Of a stretch of DNA of 64,000 nucleotides, positions 22,215 to 29,706 are shown one piece after another. The translations under genes and the position numbers were made by a program. The stretch covers positions 77,371-141,370 of the forward strand of contig NZ_JOAK01000015.1 of assembly GCF_000720455.1 (NCBI RefSeq), read 5' to 3'. The notes beneath the pieces are model-generated. The model ran no database searches and had not been told where the DNA came from. It saw nothing but the letters and a program-made list of their open reading frames with translations. Numbering within the stretch: position 1 is the first letter of the stretch; every line of letters starts with the position of its first letter. The stretch comes from Streptomyces virginiae (lineage in GTDB: Bacteria; Actinomycetota; Actinomycetes; Streptomycetales; Streptomycetaceae).

Positions 22215-25200
22215 TCAGTTCCACCGAGTCAGCCGCTCCGGCGGGATGGCTTCGATCCCGTTGAGCACCACGTCGCCGTACACCTCGATCGAGATCTGCT
22301 CCGCCCTCGCCAGCGGGGTGAGGTCCACGCAACCGCTGCGTTGGTTGAATACGAGGCGGCGGAGGTGCGGCAGGGAGCTGAGCGGCGCCAGGGAGTCCAC
22401 GACAGCACACTGGTTCAGCGACAGGTCGGTGACGTGGTCGAATCGGGTCAGCAGAGCCGGTTCGATCGCTGCCTCGGTGATGTCAAGGTTGGTCACCGGC
22501 AAGTGGGGATGGTGCGCGGCAAGTTCCTGTACCCGCTCGTCGCCGCTGATTGCGAGGGAACGGAGTTCCTGCCAGCGTTCCAAACCGACGAGGGGAATGT
22601 CGCGGGCGGTCAGGCCCAAGGACAGCGACTGCAAACCGTCGCTGACCGGCAGAGTGCCGACCCGGTCCACCGGGGCCCGGTAGCCCAAGTGCAGTGAATC
22701 GAGGGGGAGCATTTGCAGCGAACCCAGAGGCAGCCCGTCCTGGAGGCCGAAAAGGCTCAGATTGTGCAGCGGAAGGTCTGCGAGCGGACCCAAGTCGCCG
22801 ATGGCCGGGCACATGGACAGGCCGAGGAACTGAAGTCGGTCGAGCCGGCGCAGAGGGGCGAGATCCGTCAGTGTTTCGTTGCGGAAGACGAAAAGCCACT
22901 CCAGGTCGCTGCGGCTCGCGAGTATGTCGGCGAGGCCCGGCGCCCAGTGGAGGTTGACCCGCTTGAGGTGAGTGAGCCGGGCGAGCCATGCGGCCTGCTC
23001 GGCCGTGTTCACCAGCAGGCTCGCATTGCCCAGGTCGGCGCTGCTGAGCACGACCTCGGCGTATTCCGCAGTATCGAAGCGCCCCCAGCTTTCGCCTAGG
23101 GCGTGGGACACACGGAGCCGTGTGTCCGACCGGAACCTGGTGATGACCTTCATGGCCGCGGAACCACCGATCCCGGCTGCGGTGAGGATAACCGCCTCGG
23201 CCGCATGGGCGTCCAAATCGCCGCTGCCGGGCAGCAGTTCCAGGACGATTTCCCCCGCCTTGGCCAGTGACTCGGCCTGGCGGCGGTTGCGCGGCGGCAG
23301 CAATTCCGCAGTACGGGACTGAATGTCGGCGCGGATCACAGGGTCCAGCTCCGGGGCGTGTTCCAGACAGGCAGCGGCCAGCAGGATCAGACGGCTGCGG
23401 GTGCCCTTGACCTTGTCCGCGCGTTTCAGCAGGCCGCGCAGGATGCGGGTACGTTCGTCCGGGCGGGCATGACCCACGGCCATTCGGACGACATCGTCCC
23501 ACGTGTCGTCGTGCGCGTTCTTCACCAGGACACCGAAGTCGCGGGCTTCCACTGCGGCCTTCGCAGCCAGGTAGTCCTGAAAGGTGCGGTGGACGAAGAC
23601 GACCGTGCCCGGAGCCGGCTCCAGGAGCAGGCCGCTGCGGATCAGGAGATGGGTGAAGACCGGGTCGGCGCCTCCCTGAGCCCGTACCTGGGGCATCGAG
23701 TCCAGCCACCCGCCCACCAACTCGACGGCTTCGTCCCGGCCCGCCTCCAACTGCCCGTTGCGGATCAGCCAGTACGCGAGCCGCTGGAGCAGCGCGATCT
23801 GCTCCTCCCGGGTGAGGTAGACCCCCTCGACCCCGCAGATCTCCCGCTCCGTGTCCCGCCGGACCAGCAGCATGTCCAGTGCCGCGTCGTACAGTTCCTT
23901 GCGCGCCCGGGGGAGCTGCATGCGCCGGTCCTGGTTGAGGGCGCAGAGCAGGGCGCACATCAGTGGGTTCGTCGCCAGTCGGGCCAGGTCCCGTCGGGAG
24001 GCGACCGCCTCCAGCAGTGAGGCCTCGTACGCGTCCACCTCCTGCCCCTGCGCCCGCGCGGCCGCGTGCCAATGCTCCACGAAGGCCCGGATGTCGCGCT
24101 GTTCCATCGGCAGCATCGAGTGGGTGGCGAACCCGAGGCCCGCGAGCCAGTCCTCCGGGACGGCAGAGGGGCGGGTCGTCACCACGTAACGGGCCTTCGG
24201 GAAGGCGGAGACGAGCGAGCGCAGCCAGGTCTCCGTGCGGGCGCGCAGCCGCTGCGGGACCTCGTCCACGCCGTCCACCAGGACCAGCGCCCGGCCGCTC
24301 AGCATGAGGTCGTCGACCCAGCCCGGCGGGGCGGACAGCGGTACGCCGCCCGCGCGCAGGAAGTCCTCCGGCAGGGGCAGGTCGCCCGATGCGGTGAAGG
24401 AGCGCAGGCGCAGCACGAACGGCACGCACGTGCTCCACGGTCCGTCGCTCTGCCGGGCCGCATTGAGGGCCAGCCATTGCACCAGGGTGGATTTCCCCGA
24501 GCCCGCCGGACCGCGCAGCAGGACCCGATCGGCGGAGGCGAGGGCCTGCTCGGCCCGGACCTGGGTCCGGTGCACCGCCGGTTCGCCCGGCAGGAGCTGC
24601 TCCGTGCCGCTGACCGACAGGCTGATGTACGCCACGTCCAGCGGCCAGTCCTGGCGGGAGCGGCTGAGGGTGAGGCCGAAGAGCTGGAGGCGGCCGTGGG
24701 TCGCGGCGATGTACTGCGCGTAACGCTCCTCGAAGGCGTACGACGTCCCGTCCCCGGCGGCACCGAGCCGGTCCACCGCACGGGCCAGCTCCCCCGTCCG
24801 CCGGACCAGTTCCACGTCCGTCCGGGCGGCGAAGCCCGGCAGGGTCGTCAGGTACTCCACCGTGTGCTCGCAGCACAGCCGGACCAGCCGCCCGTACAGG
24901 GCCTCGGCCGCACCGCCCAGGCCGGGTGGGGCCGGCGGCAGTGTCGCCGCCAGGGCCGTCGGGTCCAGGTCCGCCGCGAAGAGGGCCTCCGCGTCCAGTG
25001 GGCCCAGCGCGGCGAAGGCGTCGCCGACCGCGGCAACCGCCGCCAGCCGTTCGTGTTCGGGGAGGCGGGCAGTGGCCTCGGTCATGCGGGCCGCGAGGGC
25101 CTCGGCCAGGCGGCGGACCTCCGGCTCGGCCAGTTCCGTCGGCGGCCGGCGCCAGCGCGGGACCGGGCGGGCGGGGTCCGCCGTCAGGCCCGCCCCCGGG

Positions 25201-25280
25201 GCCCGGGACAGCAGGGACCTGACCAGGGCGCTCGCCGCCGTGCCCGCCACGCGTAACAGAACCGTCTCGAATCCCGTCAT
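22215..25280 (-). CDS. NACHT-domain STAND NTPase with C-terminal leucine-rich repeats
   Basis: A 1,021-residue NLR-like protein. An N-terminal helical domain of about 220 residues resembles those preceding many bacterial NACHTs. The NACHT core follows: Walker A RGPAGSGKSTLVQWL at about 256-270, Walker B RALVLVDGVDEVPQRL at about 330-345, and a sensor-like YVVTTRPSAV at about 365. A helical middle region follows. From about residue 790 to the end lie degenerate leucine-rich repeats (LTDLAPLRRLDRLQFLGLS, LPLHNLSLFGLQDGLPLGSL). ATG 25280 fits the start of homology. Bacterial NACHT proteins include anti-phage sensors and regulators; which applies here is unknown. It is transcribed alone, divergent from the ether-lipid pair. 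Confidence 0.9.
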   Translation of the reverse strand: MTGFETVLLRVAGTAASALVRSLLSRAPGAGLTADPARPVPRWRRPPTELAEPEVRRLAEALAARMTEATARLPEHERLAAVAAVGDAFAALGPLDAEALFAADLDPTALAATLPPAPPGLGGAAEALYGRLVRLCCEHTVEYLTTLPGFAARTDVELVRRTGELARAVDRLGAAGDGTSYAFEERYAQYIAATHGRLQLFGLTLSRSRQDWPLDVAYISLSVSGTEQLLPGEPAVHRTQVRAEQALASADRVLLRGPAGSGKSTLVQWLALNAARQSDGPWSTCVPFVLRLRSFTASGDLPLPEDFLRAGGVPLSAPPGWVDDLMLSGRALVLVDGVDEVPQRLRARTETWLRSLVSAFPKARYVVTTRPSAVPEDWLAGLGFATHSMLPMEQRDIRAFVEHWHAAARAQGQEVDAYEASLLEAVASRRDLARLATNPLMCALLCALNQDRRMQLPRARKELYDAALDMLLVRRDTEREICGVEGVYLTREEQIALLQRLAYWLIRNGQLEAGRDEAVELVGGWLDSMPQVRAQGGADPVFTHLLIRSGLLLEPAPGTVVFVHRTFQDYLAAKAAVEARDFGVLVKNAHDDTWDDVVRMAVGHARPDERTRILRGLLKRADKVKGTRSRLILLAAACLEHAPELDPVIRADIQSRTAELLPPRNRRQAESLAKAGEIVLELLPGSGDLDAHAAEAVILTAAGIGGSAAMKVITRFRSDTRLRVSHALGESWGRFDTAEYAEVVLSSADLGNASLLVNTAEQAAWLARLTHLKRVNLHWAPGLADILASRSDLEWLFVFRNETLTDLAPLRRLDRLQFLGLSMCPAIGDLGPLADLPLHNLSLFGLQDGLPLGSLQMLPLDSLHLGYRAPVDRVGTLPVSDGLQSLSLGLTARDIPLVGLERWQELRSLAISGDERVQELAAHHPHLPVTNLDITEAAIEPALLTRFDHVTDLSLNQCAVVDSLAPLSSLPHLRRLVFNQRSGCVDLTPLARAEQISIEVYGDVVLNGIEAIPPERLTRWN

Positions 25281-25373: not shown

Positions 25374-26312
25374 ATGCCGAACCTGCCCGATGTCGTGCTG
25401 TGGTCCATACCCGCCTTCGTGCTGCTCACCGTCATCGAGCTGGTGAGCTACCGCCTCCATCCCGACGAGGACGCGGAGGGCTACGACTCCAAGGACGCCG
25501 TCACCAGCATCAGCATGGGGCTCGGCAGCATCGGCTTCGACCTGCTCTGGAAGATCCCGGTGGTCGCGGTCTTCACCGCCGTCTACGAACTCACCCCGCT
25601 GCGGGTGCCGTTGCTGTGGTGGACCATCCCGCTGATGCTGCTCGCCCAGGACTTCCTCTATTACTGGCAGCACCGCGGCCACCACGTCATCCGCATCCTG
25701 TGGGCCTGCCACGTGGTCCACCACAGCAGCCGGAAGTTCAACCTCACCACCGCCCTGCGCCAGCCCTGGACCAGTGCCACGACCTACTGGTTCTACCTGC
25801 CGATGGTGGCCGTCGGGGTGCACCCGGCCGTGATCCCGTTCTGCTACGGCATCAACCTGCTCTACCAGTTCTGGGTCCACACCGAGCGCATCGGGAAGCT
25901 TCCCCGCGCCTACGAGTACGTCTTCAACACCCCGTCCCACCACCGCGTGCACCACGCGTCCCAGGGCGGCTACCTCGACCGCAACTACGGCGGCATCCTG
26001 ATCATCTGGGACCGGATGTTCGGCTCCTGGGTGGGGGAGACCGACAAGCCCGTGTACGGGCTCACCAAGAACATCAACACCTACAACCCGCTGCGCGTCG
26101 CCACCCACGAGTACGCCGCCATCGCCCGGGACGTCCGCGCCGCCCGGAGCTGGAGCGAGCGGGCCGGCCGGGTCTTCCGCGGCCCGGGCTGGCAGCCCGC
26201 CCCCACTGCGGAGGCCGCGCCCGCCACCGCCACCGCAGCAGCCGTCCCCGCGCCCGCCACCGCGCCCGTCACCCCCGCCGCCGACCCGGCCGTACAGGAG
26301 ACCCACGCGTGA
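25374..26312 (+). CDS. sterol desaturase/fatty acid hydroxylase superfamily protein resembling alkylglycerol monooxygenase
   Basis: A 312-residue di-iron membrane oxygenase. The N-terminal two thirds hold several transmembrane helices. The His boxes are HRGHH, HVVHHSS and, later, HHRVHHAS. Around them are blocks typical of alkylglycerol monooxygenase (AGMO/TMEM195): HHSSRKFNLTTALRQ, NLLYQFWVHTE, NTPSHHRVHHA, a GGILIIWDRMFGSW stretch and FRGPGW. AGMO cleaves the O-alkyl bond of ether lipids using tetrahydrobiopterin; the bacterial reaction is inferred. The C-terminal 35 residues are an Ala/Pro/Thr-rich tail. Its stop overlaps the next gene's GTG. Confidence 0.85.
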   Translation: MPNLPDVVLWSIPAFVLLTVIELVSYRLHPDEDAEGYDSKDAVTSISMGLGSIGFDLLWKIPVVAVFTAVYELTPLRVPLLWWTIPLMLLAQDFLYYWQHRGHHVIRILWACHVVHHSSRKFNLTTALRQPWTSATTYWFYLPMVAVGVHPAVIPFCYGINLLYQFWVHTERIGKLPRAYEYVFNTPSHHRVHHASQGGYLDRNYGGILIIWDRMFGSWVGETDKPVYGLTKNINTYNPLRVATHEYAAIARDVRAARSWSERAGRVFRGPGWQPAPTAEAAPATATAAAVPAPATAPVTPAADPAVQETHA

Positions 26313-26992
26313 GCACCGAGTCCCCCGGCCGCCCCGCACCCTCCTGGGCCGCCCCGCGGGCGGCGGCCGGGCGGGCGCGCCTCGGCCGCCTCGCCCTCTA
26401 CGGCTTCGCCGCCGCCACCGCCGTCGACCTCGGGTCGCTGCTGGCCGGCTGGCACCTCGGGCACGTCATCGCCAAGCCGCTGCTGATGCCGCTGCTCGTC
26501 GCCTACGCGATCACGCGCGGCGCGCCCCGCCTGCTGGTCGCCGCCCTGCTGTTCGGCTGGGGCGGGGACCTGGCCCTGCTCTTCGACGCCGAGGCCGCCT
26601 TCCTGGTCGGCATGGGCTCCTTCGCCGTCGGACACGTCTGCTACCTCGTCCTCTTCGGCAAGCGGCCCGCGAACCCCCTGCTCGGGGGCGCCTACGCCCT
26701 GGCCCTCCTCGGGACCGTCGCCCTGCTGTGGGCCGATCTGCCCGCGGACCTGCGGATCCCCGTGGCCGGCTACAGCCTGCTGCTCACCGCCATGGCCTTC
26801 CGCTCCAGCGCCCTCGGCCTGCGGGCCGGCATCGGCGGCGCGCTGTTCCTGCTGTCCGACACCCTCATCGCCACCGGCGTCGCCGAGTGGCCGCAGCTGC
26901 CCCGCCCGGACTTCTGGATCATGGCCACCTACCTGGCCGCCCAGTACCTGCTGGCCACTGGCGCGACCTCCCGGGAAGCAGGCGTACGGTAG
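26309..26992 (+). CDS. lysoplasmalogenase, YhhN/TMEM86 family
   Basis: A 227-residue polytopic membrane protein with about eight hydrophobic segments. The conserved acidic sites of the YhhN family are seen in WGGDLALLF and LLSDTLIA, with KPLLMPLL early in the chain. Relatives hydrolyse the vinyl-ether bond of lysoplasmalogens. GTG 26309 overlaps the stop of the AGMO-like gene (GTGA), giving translational coupling. The pairing of two ether-lipid-cleaving families is discussed among the findings. Confidence 0.87.
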   Translation: MSTESPGRPAPSWAAPRAAAGRARLGRLALYGFAAATAVDLGSLLAGWHLGHVIAKPLLMPLLVAYAITRGAPRLLVAALLFGWGGDLALLFDAEAAFLVGMGSFAVGHVCYLVLFGKRPANPLLGGAYALALLGTVALLWADLPADLRIPVAGYSLLLTAMAFRSSALGLRAGIGGALFLLSDTLIATGVAEWPQLPRPDFWIMATYLAAQYLLATGATSREAGVR

Positions 26993-27048: not shown

Positions 27049-28092
27049 ATGCGCGCCACCGTCATCCACGCCCCGCACGACATACGCGTGGAGGAGGTGC
27101 CCGACGCTGCGATCCAGCGCCCCGAGGACGCCGTCGTCCGCGTCCTGCGTGCCTGCATCTGCGGCAGCGACCTGTGGGCCTACCGCGGCGAGGCCGCGCG
27201 CCAGCCCGGCCAGCGCATCGGCCACGAGTTCCTGGGCGTCGTCGAGGAGACCGGCTCCGCCGTCTCCGGGCTGCGCGCGGGCGACCTCGTGGTCGCGCCC
27301 TTCATGTGGTCGGACGGCACCTGCGAGTACTGCACCGAGGGCCTGTACACCTCCTGCGACCACGGCGGCTTCTGGGGCTCGGTCGGCCACGACGGCGGCC
27401 AGGGCGAGGCCGTGCGCGTCCCGCACGCCGACGGGACGCTGGTGAAGCTGCCCGCCGAGGCCGTCTCCGACGACCACCTGCTGACCGGCCTGCTCGCCCT
27501 CTCCGACGTCATGGGCACCGGGCACCACGCCGCGCTGGGCGCGGGCGTGCGCGAGGGCTCCACGGTCGCCGTGGTCGGCGACGGCGCGGTCGGCCTGTGC
27601 GGAGTGCTCGCCGCCAAGCGCCTCGGCGCCGAGCGGATCATCGCGCTGGGCCGCCACACCGTCCGTACGGACATCGCCAGGCTCTTCGGGGCCACCGACG
27701 TCGTCGCCGAGCGCGGCGAGGCCGCCGAGGCGGCCGTGCGCGAGCTCACCGGCGGCCGCGGCGCGCACTGCGTCATCGAGGCGGTCGGCACCGAGCAGTC
27801 CATGCGCACGGCGGTCGGCATCACCCGTGACGGCGGGGCCATCGGCTACGTCGGCGTCCCGCACGGCAGCGGCACCGGCCTCGACCTCGGCGTCATGTTC
27901 GACCGCAACATCACCCTGCGCGGCGGTGTGGCACCGGTCCGCGCCTACATCCCGGAGCTGCTGCAGGACGTCCTCGGCGGCGTGATCGACCCGGCGCCCG
28001 TCTTCGACCGCGCCGTGTCCCTGGACGAGGTCCCGGACGGCTACCGCGCGATGGACGACCGCAGTGCGCTCAAGGTGCTGATCAAGCCCTGA
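27049..28092 (+). CDS. zinc-dependent medium-chain alcohol dehydrogenase
   Basis: A 347-residue MDR enzyme. The catalytic zinc ligands are Cys in CICGSD (about residue 37) and His-Glu in GHEFLG; a structural lobe has the reduced Cys set CEYCTEGLYTSC. The Rossmann fold motif is VAVVGDGAVGLCGV, followed by ALGRHTVRT, where no acidic residue follows the second strand, suggesting NADP. ATG 27049 has a GGAGG site. Substrate unknown; many close relatives are annotated as threonine or S-formylglutathione-like dehydrogenases on weak grounds. Confidence 0.9.
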   Translation: MRATVIHAPHDIRVEEVPDAAIQRPEDAVVRVLRACICGSDLWAYRGEAARQPGQRIGHEFLGVVEETGSAVSGLRAGDLVVAPFMWSDGTCEYCTEGLYTSCDHGGFWGSVGHDGGQGEAVRVPHADGTLVKLPAEAVSDDHLLTGLLALSDVMGTGHHAALGAGVREGSTVAVVGDGAVGLCGVLAAKRLGAERIIALGRHTVRTDIARLFGATDVVAERGEAAEAAVRELTGGRGAHCVIEAVGTEQSMRTAVGITRDGGAIGYVGVPHGSGTGLDLGVMFDRNITLRGGVAPVRAYIPELLQDVLGGVIDPAPVFDRAVSLDEVPDGYRAMDDRSALKVLIKP

Positions 28093-28161: not shown

Positions 28162-29706
28162 CTACTTCACGGCCTTGAGGGCGTCCACGACGCCGTAGCC
28201 GTAGTAGCCCGTCTGCCCCCACTTGGCCTGGCAGGTGGTGGCGTCGACCAGGGTGCCCGCGGCGTCGTAGATCTGCGTCGGGCAGGCCGCCTTGGTGGAC
28301 TGCGCCTTCAGCATCGCCTGGAGCTGCGAGGGCGTGGCCCCCGGGTGGGCGCTCTTGAGCAGCGCCGCGACGCCCGCGACGTGCGGGGCGGCCATCGAGG
28401 TGCCCTGCTTGTACCCGTAGCCCCCGCCCGGGACGGTCGACAGCACGCGCCCGTTGGCGTCCGGCGTGGCCGGGACCTGCCACTTGTCGCCGCCGGGGGC
28501 CGCGACGTCCACGACCCCGAGGCCGTAGCTGGAGTAGTACGAGCGCAGGCCCTTGTCGCCGGTCGCGGAGACGGTGACCACGCCCGGCAGCTGCGTGGGC
28601 AGGTCCAGGCAGACCTTCGGGTCGATGGTGCGCGTCACCGGGGTGGTGTCGTTCGGGCTGGTGGTGTCCTCCAGGGAGTCGGCCGCCAGGTCCTGGTTGG
28701 AGTTGCCGGCGGACGCCACGTGCAGGGTGCCCTTGCGCTCCGCGTACTTGGTGGCCCGGCCGATGGCCTCCACCAGCGCCTTCTGGTCGTCGTCGGTCTT
28801 GCAGTTGAAGAGCCACGGGTCGACGTAGTAGCTGTTGTTGGTCACCTCGATCCCCTTCTCGGCGGCGAACATGAAGCCGCAGACGACCGCCTCGGTGTAG
28901 AAGAGGCTGGTCCCGGGCTCGCTCACCTTGATCGCGGCGATCTTCACGCCGGGCGCCACACCGCTGATGCCGACGCCGTTGCGCGGGGCGCCGATGGTGC
29001 CGGCGACGTGCGTGCCGTGGTCGCTGCCGTCGGGGTACGGGCGCCAGGCGCCGTCGGTGGTGTCGGCGACCCCGCCGACGCAGTTGGCCGACTGGCCCTT
29101 GGAGAAGTTCGGGGCGAGATCGGGGTGGGTGTCGTCCACACCCGTGTCGATGATGCCCACCGTGACGTCCTGGCTGCCATCGTTGATCTTGTGAGCCTCG
29201 TCGGCCCTGATCGTCCGCAGGTCCCACTGGTTGGGTTCGAGCGGCTCCTGACCCTCCTGGGCACGCGCCGCCGCCTTGGCCGCGTCCGCCTCGCTCAGCA
29301 GCTGGGTCGCGCCCTCGTCGGTGGTCTGCACCGCCTGCATCGGGGCCGTCCGGGTGGCGCCGACGGACACGAACAGCCCACGCTGGGCGCGCAGCTGCTT
29401 GGCGAAGTCCGGGTTCTGGGAGTGTGCGACGACGACCCCGATCTGCTCATAGGCCGTCACCACCGTTCCGCCGGCCCGCTCGACGGCCTTCTTCGCCGCC
29501 TTCATCGTGGCGTAGGCGTTCAGGTTCGCCACGTACGACAGCTTGGGGCCGGTGGTCGCCGCCTTCGGCGCCGTCGCCGCGTCCGCGGTGGTGCCCAGCG
29601 GGGCGGCGGAGGCCGACACCGAGGGCAGCAGGGCGAGCGAGGCGGTGAGCGCCAGGCCGACCGGTACGGCCAGGGCGCGCCGGCGGACGGATCCCAGATG
29701 AGCCAT
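28162..29706 (-). CDS. secreted S8 family serine peptidase (subtilase)
   Basis: A 514-residue exported protease. The signal peptide runs from MAHLGSVRRRALAVPVG to the SASAAP region near residue 36. A prodomain follows to about 150. The catalytic triad is Asp187 (VGIIDTGVDD), His230 (SDHGTHVAG) and Ser437 (GTSMAAPHVAG), with the oxyanion Asn in SAGNSN near 335. Four or more Cys in the mature part may form disulfides. ATG 29706 fits the signal peptide. It is probably an extracellular nutrient or developmental protease. Confidence 0.95.
   Translation of the reverse strand: MAHLGSVRRRALAVPVGLALTASLALLPSVSASAAPLGTTADAATAPKAATTGPKLSYVANLNAYATMKAAKKAVERAGGTVVTAYEQIGVVVAHSQNPDFAKQLRAQRGLFVSVGATRTAPMQAVQTTDEGATQLLSEADAAKAAARAQEGQEPLEPNQWDLRTIRADEAHKINDGSQDVTVGIIDTGVDDTHPDLAPNFSKGQSANCVGGVADTTDGAWRPYPDGSDHGTHVAGTIGAPRNGVGISGVAPGVKIAAIKVSEPGTSLFYTEAVVCGFMFAAEKGIEVTNNSYYVDPWLFNCKTDDDQKALVEAIGRATKYAERKGTLHVASAGNSNQDLAADSLEDTTSPNDTTPVTRTIDPKVCLDLPTQLPGVVTVSATGDKGLRSYYSSYGLGVVDVAAPGGDKWQVPATPDANGRVLSTVPGGGYGYKQGTSMAAPHVAGVAALLKSAHPGATPSQLQAMLKAQSTKAACPTQIYDAAGTLVDATTCQAKWGQTGYYGYGVVDALKAVK

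Follow-up and report, generated by a model that had tools for sequence, protein, structure and literature searches.

Two overlapping genes in the 64,000-nucleotide stretch of Streptomyces virginiae DNA analysed here (the window) encode, in this order, a di-iron membrane oxygenase resembling animal alkylglycerol monooxygenase (AGMO) and a protein of the YhhN/TMEM86 family. In animals, AGMO cleaves the ether bond of alkyl lipids, and TMEM86 acts on the vinyl ether bond of lysoplasmalogens. Reading the two sequences together, we propose that the pair, whose translation is probably coupled, forms a membrane unit that would break the ether bonds of (lyso)ether lipids; in our judgment, this proposal has about an even chance of being right.

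A Gene Pair with a Four-Base Overlap

The pair lies on the forward strand and is organized as follows:

25374..26312, + strand: coding sequence with an ATG start, AGMO-like (short form) di-iron membrane monooxygenase, 312 aa, PF04116
26309..26992, + strand: coding sequence with a GTG start, YhhN/TMEM86-family protein, 227 aa, eight predicted helices, PF07947
26309..26312, + strand: GTGA overlap, combining the stop TGA of the hydroxylase gene and the start GTG of the YhhN gene

The original prediction had pointed to this overlap, and the hydroxylase ORF does end in GTGA; the hydroxylase motifs that it quoted are likewise all found in the translation of 25374-26312(+). A four-base overlap (GTGA or ATGA) is retained in the six main-clade Streptomyces pairs inspected (L004-L008 and L122), while the seventh pair inspected (L123), which belongs to another paralog lineage, has the junction TGAcATG. 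Judging from this arrangement, translational coupling of the hydroxylase and YhhN genes through the GTGA overlap is probable. The nearest database relatives are named Streptomyces and are up to 95-98% identical. A second FA_hydroxylase of the same genome (L020) is also AGMO-like (205 bits against the AGMO profile described below; 43% identity to the first) and has no adjacent YhhN gene, the whole genome containing a single YhhN.

The surroundings of the pair were inspected as well. The zinc alcohol dehydrogenase gene located downstream (27049-28092) was considered as a third member and rejected: tblastn at 1e-10 gave nothing for it in 13 Streptomyces stretches, several of these including little flanking sequence; the NACHT gene located upstream gave one partial match among the 13. 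Domain matches in the five flanking proteins scanned indicate no biosynthetic cluster.

The Oxygenase Is AGMO-like and Lacks the C-Terminal Domain of AGMO

The 312-aa hydroxylase matches the Pfam family FA_hydroxylase (PF04116) at 1.2e-28 and 100.6 bits. It shares 37.5% identity with gibbon AGMO over 304 aa, 40% with coelacanth AGMO over 283 aa, and 34% with centipede AGMO over the catalytic domain, whereas four fungal ERG3 sequences give only short local matches of 37-89 aa. Scored against a profile of nine vertebrate AGMOs and another of ten fungal ERG3 homologues, it obtains 222.4 and 9.3 bits, respectively. The likeness to animal AGMO blocks holds in alignment for the quoted blocks, and, on the choice between AGMO and sterol desaturase that had been raised with it, the protein is by profile AGMO-like, not a C5-desaturase. 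OlsE-type hydroxylases act on ornithine lipids; an OlsE assignment was also tried and rejected, the model NF052566 scoring 39 bits for a cut-off of 475.

Nine histidines and six other residues are listed as essential in AGMO in the excerpted text of PMC7911779. All fifteen are found by alignment in the hydroxylase (9/9 histidines and 6/6 others, the latter being Q162, D233, N235, Y236, W243, and D244 of AGMO), within or near the following blocks:

25671..25685, + strand: first His block HRGHH, residues 100-104, where H100 = AGMO H132 and H104 = AGMO H136 (alignment; PMC7911779, in excerpt)
25710..25763, + strand: second His block and AGMO signature HVVHHSSRKFNLTTALRQ, residues 113-130, with H113, H116, H117, and the discriminating Q130 = AGMO Q162
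25878..25880, + strand: H169 within NLLYQFWVHTE, = AGMO H201
25926..26012, + strand: NTPSHHRVHH...YLDRNYGGILIIWD, residues 185-213, with H190, H193, H194, D202, N204, Y205, W212, and D213
26175..26192, + strand: FRGPGW block closing the catalytic domain; beyond it, an Ala/Pro tail replaces the AGMO C-terminal domain

The discriminating value of these residues was compared across 101 aligned rows. With two exceptions, the His positions are common to the other FA_hydroxylases compared, and Y236 does not discriminate: a tyrosine in this hydroxylase, it is absent in 10 of the 13 other Streptomyces rows and in many bacterial rows. Q162 and D233 (D202 in the hydroxylase) are the discriminating residues. 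Both are present in the 14 paired or unpaired Streptomyces rows, in the 6 animal rows, and in all 57 bacterial AGMO rows taken from a scan of genomes with an alignment of animal AGMOs (best 80 of 570 loci), and both are missing from the ERG3 rows (0/5) and the other FA_hydroxylase rows (0/9); the picture is mixed for Streptomyces paralogs (1/2) and other actinobacterial rows (6/8).

The C-terminal domain of AGMO, AGMP_C (PF24858), gave no match in the hydroxylase at E values up to 1; we have, therefore, filed the protein as an AGMO-like short form and not as AGMO. Its AlphaFold2 model, built from 24 sequences, has a mean pLDDT of 68.9, and a fold search with this model returned a single match at E 7.2; the model was, therefore, set aside. 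Sequence searches against solved structures found no convincing relative for either protein of the pair, with weak unrelated matches at E 0.2 or worse, or none.

In a phylogenetic tree restricted to AGMO-like proteins (49 of the 101 rows), one branch sets apart the animals (100/96.6), another the actinobacterial rows (100/100), and a third animals plus actinobacteria (99/94.6). When outgroups are added, a quick tree leaves ERG3 and the other FA_hydroxylases outside the AGMO-like rows. A more careful tree, also of 49 of the 101 rows, rejects neither a single group of all AGMO-like rows (p 0.284) nor a placement of ERG3 together with six Streptomyces rows (AU p 0.534), and the branches leading to ERG3 and the other FA_hydroxylases amount to 7-9 changes per column in it. 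As this careful tree leaves the root unplaced, the family assignment rests on the profile scores and the residues.

The YhhN Partner

The 227-aa partner matches YhhN (PF07947) at 3.1e-36 and 125.2 bits. Eight residues have been mutated in TMEM86A/B, all of which mattered except the first glycine, according to the excerpted text of PMC11994398; the partner has all eight, as assigned by motif and spacing and not by an alignment to TMEM86:

26474..26932, + strand: span of the residues tested in TMEM86A/B, K56, G86, D87, H109, G176, S183, D184, and Y208 (PMC11994398, in excerpt)

Together, the Pfam match and these eight residues bear out the TMEM86/YhhN family call made for the second gene. Across 52 aligned YhhN rows, no variation is seen at K56, G86, D87, S183, or D184, and 8 rows have Q in place of H109. 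The structural model shows eight helices with a mean pLDDT of 91.7, and a fold search with it gave no match at E ≤ 0.001. In the excerpts of PMC9052158 and PMC11994398, the tested members of the family, bacterial ones included, are lysoplasmalogenases; the former also raises as a question the presence of YhhN in microbes without plasmalogen synthesis.

Pairing in Streptomyces and Other Actinobacteria

In a sample of 150 Streptomyces genomes, including that of the window, YhhN is found in 100 and FA_hydroxylase in 107. Both are present in 95 genomes, YhhN only in 5, FA_hydroxylase only in 12, and neither in 38 (Fisher p 1.2e-19, not corrected for relatedness). The original prediction had made its case depend on the pair being conserved in related genomes, and the two genes do stand in tandem in 84 of the 95 genomes with both (83 of 94 without the window's own genome) and, as described below, in Bacteroidota too. 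In all these Streptomyces tandems, the genes share a single strand, FA_hydroxylase comes first, and 266-573 bases separate the domain ends. The genes are not adjacent in the other 11 genomes: four of them (G253, G289, G363, and G384) are uninformative, their YhhN gene being the first thing on its contig, and the contig start is no explanation for the remaining seven.

Sampled across the actinobacterial phylum, YhhN is present in 43 of 246 genomes. FA_hydroxylase, which was searched in these 43 genomes plus one Streptomyces without YhhN, is found in 25 of the 44. Six of the seven Streptomyces with both families have them adjacent; outside Streptomyces, adjacency was found in 0 of the 18 other actinobacterial genomes with both, one of which (G129) is counted on a sub-threshold match coinciding with its hit to CarF, a family considered below.

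A subtilase (S8 peptidase) gene recurs beside the locus in 7 of the 13 Streptomyces stretches, including some without YhhN (L010, L114, L118, and L120). As this neighbour is present even where YhhN is not, the Streptomyces locus may itself be stable, with YhhN either gained by insertion or lost.

Pairing in Bacteroidota

The genome scan with the animal AGMO alignment led mostly to Bacteroidota. Among its best 80 of 570 loci, 36 have a YhhN gene on the same strand within 0.5 kb downstream of the AGMO gene, one (L043) has it 3.4 kb downstream, and 43 have none in the stretch examined, partly due to contig ends. YhhN is also the commonest downstream neighbour, with 33 of the 74 loci having a called AGMO gene in these best 80 of 570; the two loci tested with Pfam, L026 and L049, were both confirmed as YhhN.

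Because such a scan is biased towards animal-like AGMO, we also sampled 198 Bacteroidia genomes; this sample is centred on G388, a genome picked for having the pair, and also contains G401 from the AGMO scan. YhhN is present in 57 of the 198, and 28 of these 57 have an AGMO-like gene within 3 kb upstream of it (26 of 55 when G388 and G401 are removed). Twenty-four of the pairs were recognized by a same-strand FA_hydroxylase; in the remaining 33 genomes, the stretch around the best YhhN of each was scanned with an AGMO-like profile built from vertebrate and Streptomyces sequences, which added four (L125, L140, L142, and L146). This profile matches the upstream gene in all 28 pairs; 17 of them score 287-321 bits, and none of these 17 matches the ERG3 profile at 1e-5. 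The genes are about 0.5 kb apart in G442 and G472 and 1.9 kb apart in G486. In the other 29 of the 57 genomes, none turned up in the neighbourhood of the YhhN gene inspected, so that the pairing is by no means universal.

Origin of the Pairing

The hypothesis that the paired AGMO-like rows form a single clade is rejected (AU p 1.06e-6), and at least nine changes of state are needed; this test covers 82 of the 101 rows, after the outgroups (ERG3 and the remaining FA_hydroxylases) and five rows that were long or divergent had been removed. The YhhN partners of Streptomyces do not group with those of Bacteroidia in a quick tree that has many weak forks, and the second Streptomyces paralog lineage (L123) is paired with its own, divergent YhhN. 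This history fits a repeated assembly of the pair, or else an old pair followed by many losses and partner swaps.

A protein with both Pfam domains (P0031) was considered as a possible fusion and discarded: the YhhN portion is truncated and finishes with an unusual tail, a structure that more likely reflects a frameshift. A kinship between the AGMO C-terminal domain and YhhN, which would have suggested a split or fused protein, was also tried and rejected at an hhalign probability of 1.6%.

Proposed Function and Alternatives

The catalytic claim made for the pair in the original prediction is plausible, and could be pictured as follows. The AGMO-like enzyme would use O2 to hydroxylate the carbon beside the ether oxygen in saturated O-alkyl lipids, and the resulting hemiacetal would collapse into a fatty aldehyde and a glycerol derivative; YhhN would hydrolyse the vinyl ether of lysoplasmalogens into the same kind of products. 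Both reactions would take place at the membrane, each releasing a fatty aldehyde, and the pair could jointly clear alkyl and alkenyl lyso-ether lipids, either as a nutrient or as membrane-damaging lysolipids.

CarF/PEDS1 (PF10520) is the aerobic plasmalogen desaturase. No match to it was obtained in 40 selected genomes, a set in which no control matched either. It is found in 18 of 396 actinobacterial genomes, all from other families than that of Streptomyces, but not in any of the 12 Streptomyces included in this set; these 18 matches indicate that the model is able to detect the family. The absence from the sampled Streptomyces fits the earlier remark that Streptomyces are not known as plasmalogen makers and, for this reason, any lipids cleared by the pair would probably be of foreign origin.

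Caution comes from PRUB680 of Pseudoalteromonas rubra, an AGMO-like enzyme of bacterial origin for which cyclisation of prodigiosin is reported in excerpts of PMC7911779, PMC6667630, and PMC7484904: since a protein can be AGMO-like and yet cyclise a pigment, ether cleavage by the hydroxylase is something we infer. The oxygenase could act on another lipid or on a specialised metabolite, in the manner of PRUB680 or OlsE, with YhhN acting on a related non-plasmalogen lipid. We regard this reading as unlikely, though worth keeping in mind: besides PRUB680, it draws on the missing AGMO C-terminal domain and on the YhhN bearers without plasmalogen synthesis, an open question in the excerpted PMC9052158, but it has to face the retention of all 15 AGMO residues, an OlsE score of 39 bits for a cut-off of 475, flanking domains that name no biosynthetic cluster in the five proteins scanned, and a partner whose family members are lysoplasmalogenases when tested (PMC9052158 and PMC11994398, in excerpt).

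The two enzymes might also work one after the other on a single substrate, the AGMO-like enzyme oxidising or desaturating an alkyl chain into a vinyl ether or a hemiacetal at the ether carbon and YhhN hydrolysing this product, so that the pair would form a single route in place of two parallel ones. Such a route would suit the fixed gene order and overlap, the recurrence of the pair across two phyla, and the fact that the sampled Streptomyces keep YhhN though they have no CarF/PEDS1 to make vinyl ethers; we nevertheless hold it to be improbable, as the hemiacetal of AGMO rearranges to products (PMC7911779, in excerpt), which leaves no need for a second enzyme, and as YhhN stands without FA_hydroxylase in 5 of the 100 YhhN-bearing Streptomyces and has no AGMO-like gene close by in 29 of the 57 Bacteroidia. 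That the two genes are mere neighbours, kept together in Streptomyces by descent and elsewhere by chance, seems very improbable to us. The same pair in the same order in another phylum, the paired rows not forming one clade, the four-base overlap in 6/6 main-clade pairs inspected, and the pairing of L123 in a second paralog lineage all speak against it, even if the S8 peptidase, also recurrent at 7/13 Streptomyces loci and found at loci without YhhN, shows that synteny alone is common in this genus.

Going back to a joint clearance of ether lipids, a broader version can be put forward, tentatively, as a possibility that we would not rank as probable: in two phyla or more, aerobic bacteria living in soil would possess an operon dedicated to the catabolism of ether lipids, put together on more than one occasion from an AGMO-like gene and a YhhN gene. 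YhhN and the oxygenase would both draw on alkyl and alkenyl lyso-ether lipids, whose supply would be common and so far unrecognised. If true, this operon would answer why YhhN occurs in bacteria making no plasmalogens.

Comparison with Known Systems

Neither enzyme family is new, and assays of YhhN enzymes from bacteria exist in the excerpted literature; a description of the AGMO-YhhN gene pair was not found in the titles and abstract openings of open-licence literature. Animal AGMO (TMEM195, EC 1.14.16.5) shares with the Streptomyces protein the nine histidines, the six further essential residues, the GPGW block, and 34-40% identity, but the Streptomyces form stops after the catalytic domain, carrying an Ala/Pro tail and no AGMP_C (PF24858). 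The AGMO-like proteins of Bacteroidota (Daejeonella oryzae L026 and Pedobacter spp.) belong to the same family and have YhhN within 0.5 kb downstream in 36 of the best 80 scan loci; they differ in forming a separate tree branch and in having a C-terminal region, which, in D. oryzae L026, matches AGMP_C weakly (18 bits for a cut-off of 28.3).

On the partner's side, the lysoplasmalogenases TMEM86A/B, Legionella Lpg1991, and mycobacterial Rv1401 resemble our protein in PF07947, in the eight helices, and in the eight residues tested in TMEM86A/B, a comparison made from published descriptions, in excerpt, and not from sequence; these proteins have been assayed singly, whereas here the YhhN gene overlaps an AGMO-like gene. 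PRUB680, compared by its excerpted description alone, is alike in being an AGMO-like bacterial enzyme and differs in its substrate, a pigment.

The natural pairing of AGMO-like and YhhN genes in bacteria is a functional hint for both families. Attempts to reproduce the purification of AGMO have failed, as reported in the excerpted text of PMC7911779, and the S. virginiae pair offers a short (312 aa) AGMO-like catalytic domain for expression.

Genes flanking the AGMO-like and YhhN genes

Three further genes of the window, listed below by position, lie around the AGMO-like gene and its YhhN (TMEM86/YhhN lysoplasmalogenase family) neighbour.

22215-25280 (-), divergent STAND NTPase (NNH1 and NACHT matches; leucine-rich repeat matches weak)
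27049-28092 (+), zinc alcohol dehydrogenase (domain match)
28162-29706 (-), subtilase (PF00082)

The zinc alcohol dehydrogenase gene starts 56 bases 3' of YhhN on the same strand, and its product could act on any aldehydes released; none of 13 other Streptomyces stretches searched showed a counterpart. A subtilase (PF00082) lies near the AGMO-like gene in 7 of these 13 stretches, YhhN-less loci among them. The STAND NTPase gene, separated from the AGMO-like gene by 93 bases, has a single, partial match among the same stretches, and no PADLOC model matched it.

AGMO-like genes without YhhN

AGMO-like genes were also found without an adjacent YhhN, as in the same genome (locus L020) and in two Roseivirga records (L069 and L073).

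L020 (contig C12), 2573-3568 (-), second AGMO-like FA_hydroxylase
L069, 3977-6464 (+), tandem AGMO-like gene pair
L073, 2630-5209 (+), tandem AGMO-like gene pair

The L020 protein shares 43% identity with the first AGMO-like protein of its genome, and YhhN is absent next to its gene; nor does either Roseivirga stretch examined around the tandem genes contain YhhN.

At 11 YhhN-less AGMO loci (L044, L103 and nine more), the AGMO-like gene is directly followed by one for a small protein, from a single family at all 11 and judged by eye to be a lipoprotein; this family is a recurrent partner other than YhhN.

Candidate plasmalogen desaturases in Actinomycetota

CarF/PEDS1-type desaturases occur in 18 of the 396 actinobacterial genomes sampled, in organisms with the family codes f18 and f47; those at the three loci below are candidates for aerobic plasmalogen synthesis in Actinomycetota.

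L164-L166 (genomes G026, G649 and G130), CarF/PEDS1-type desaturase loci
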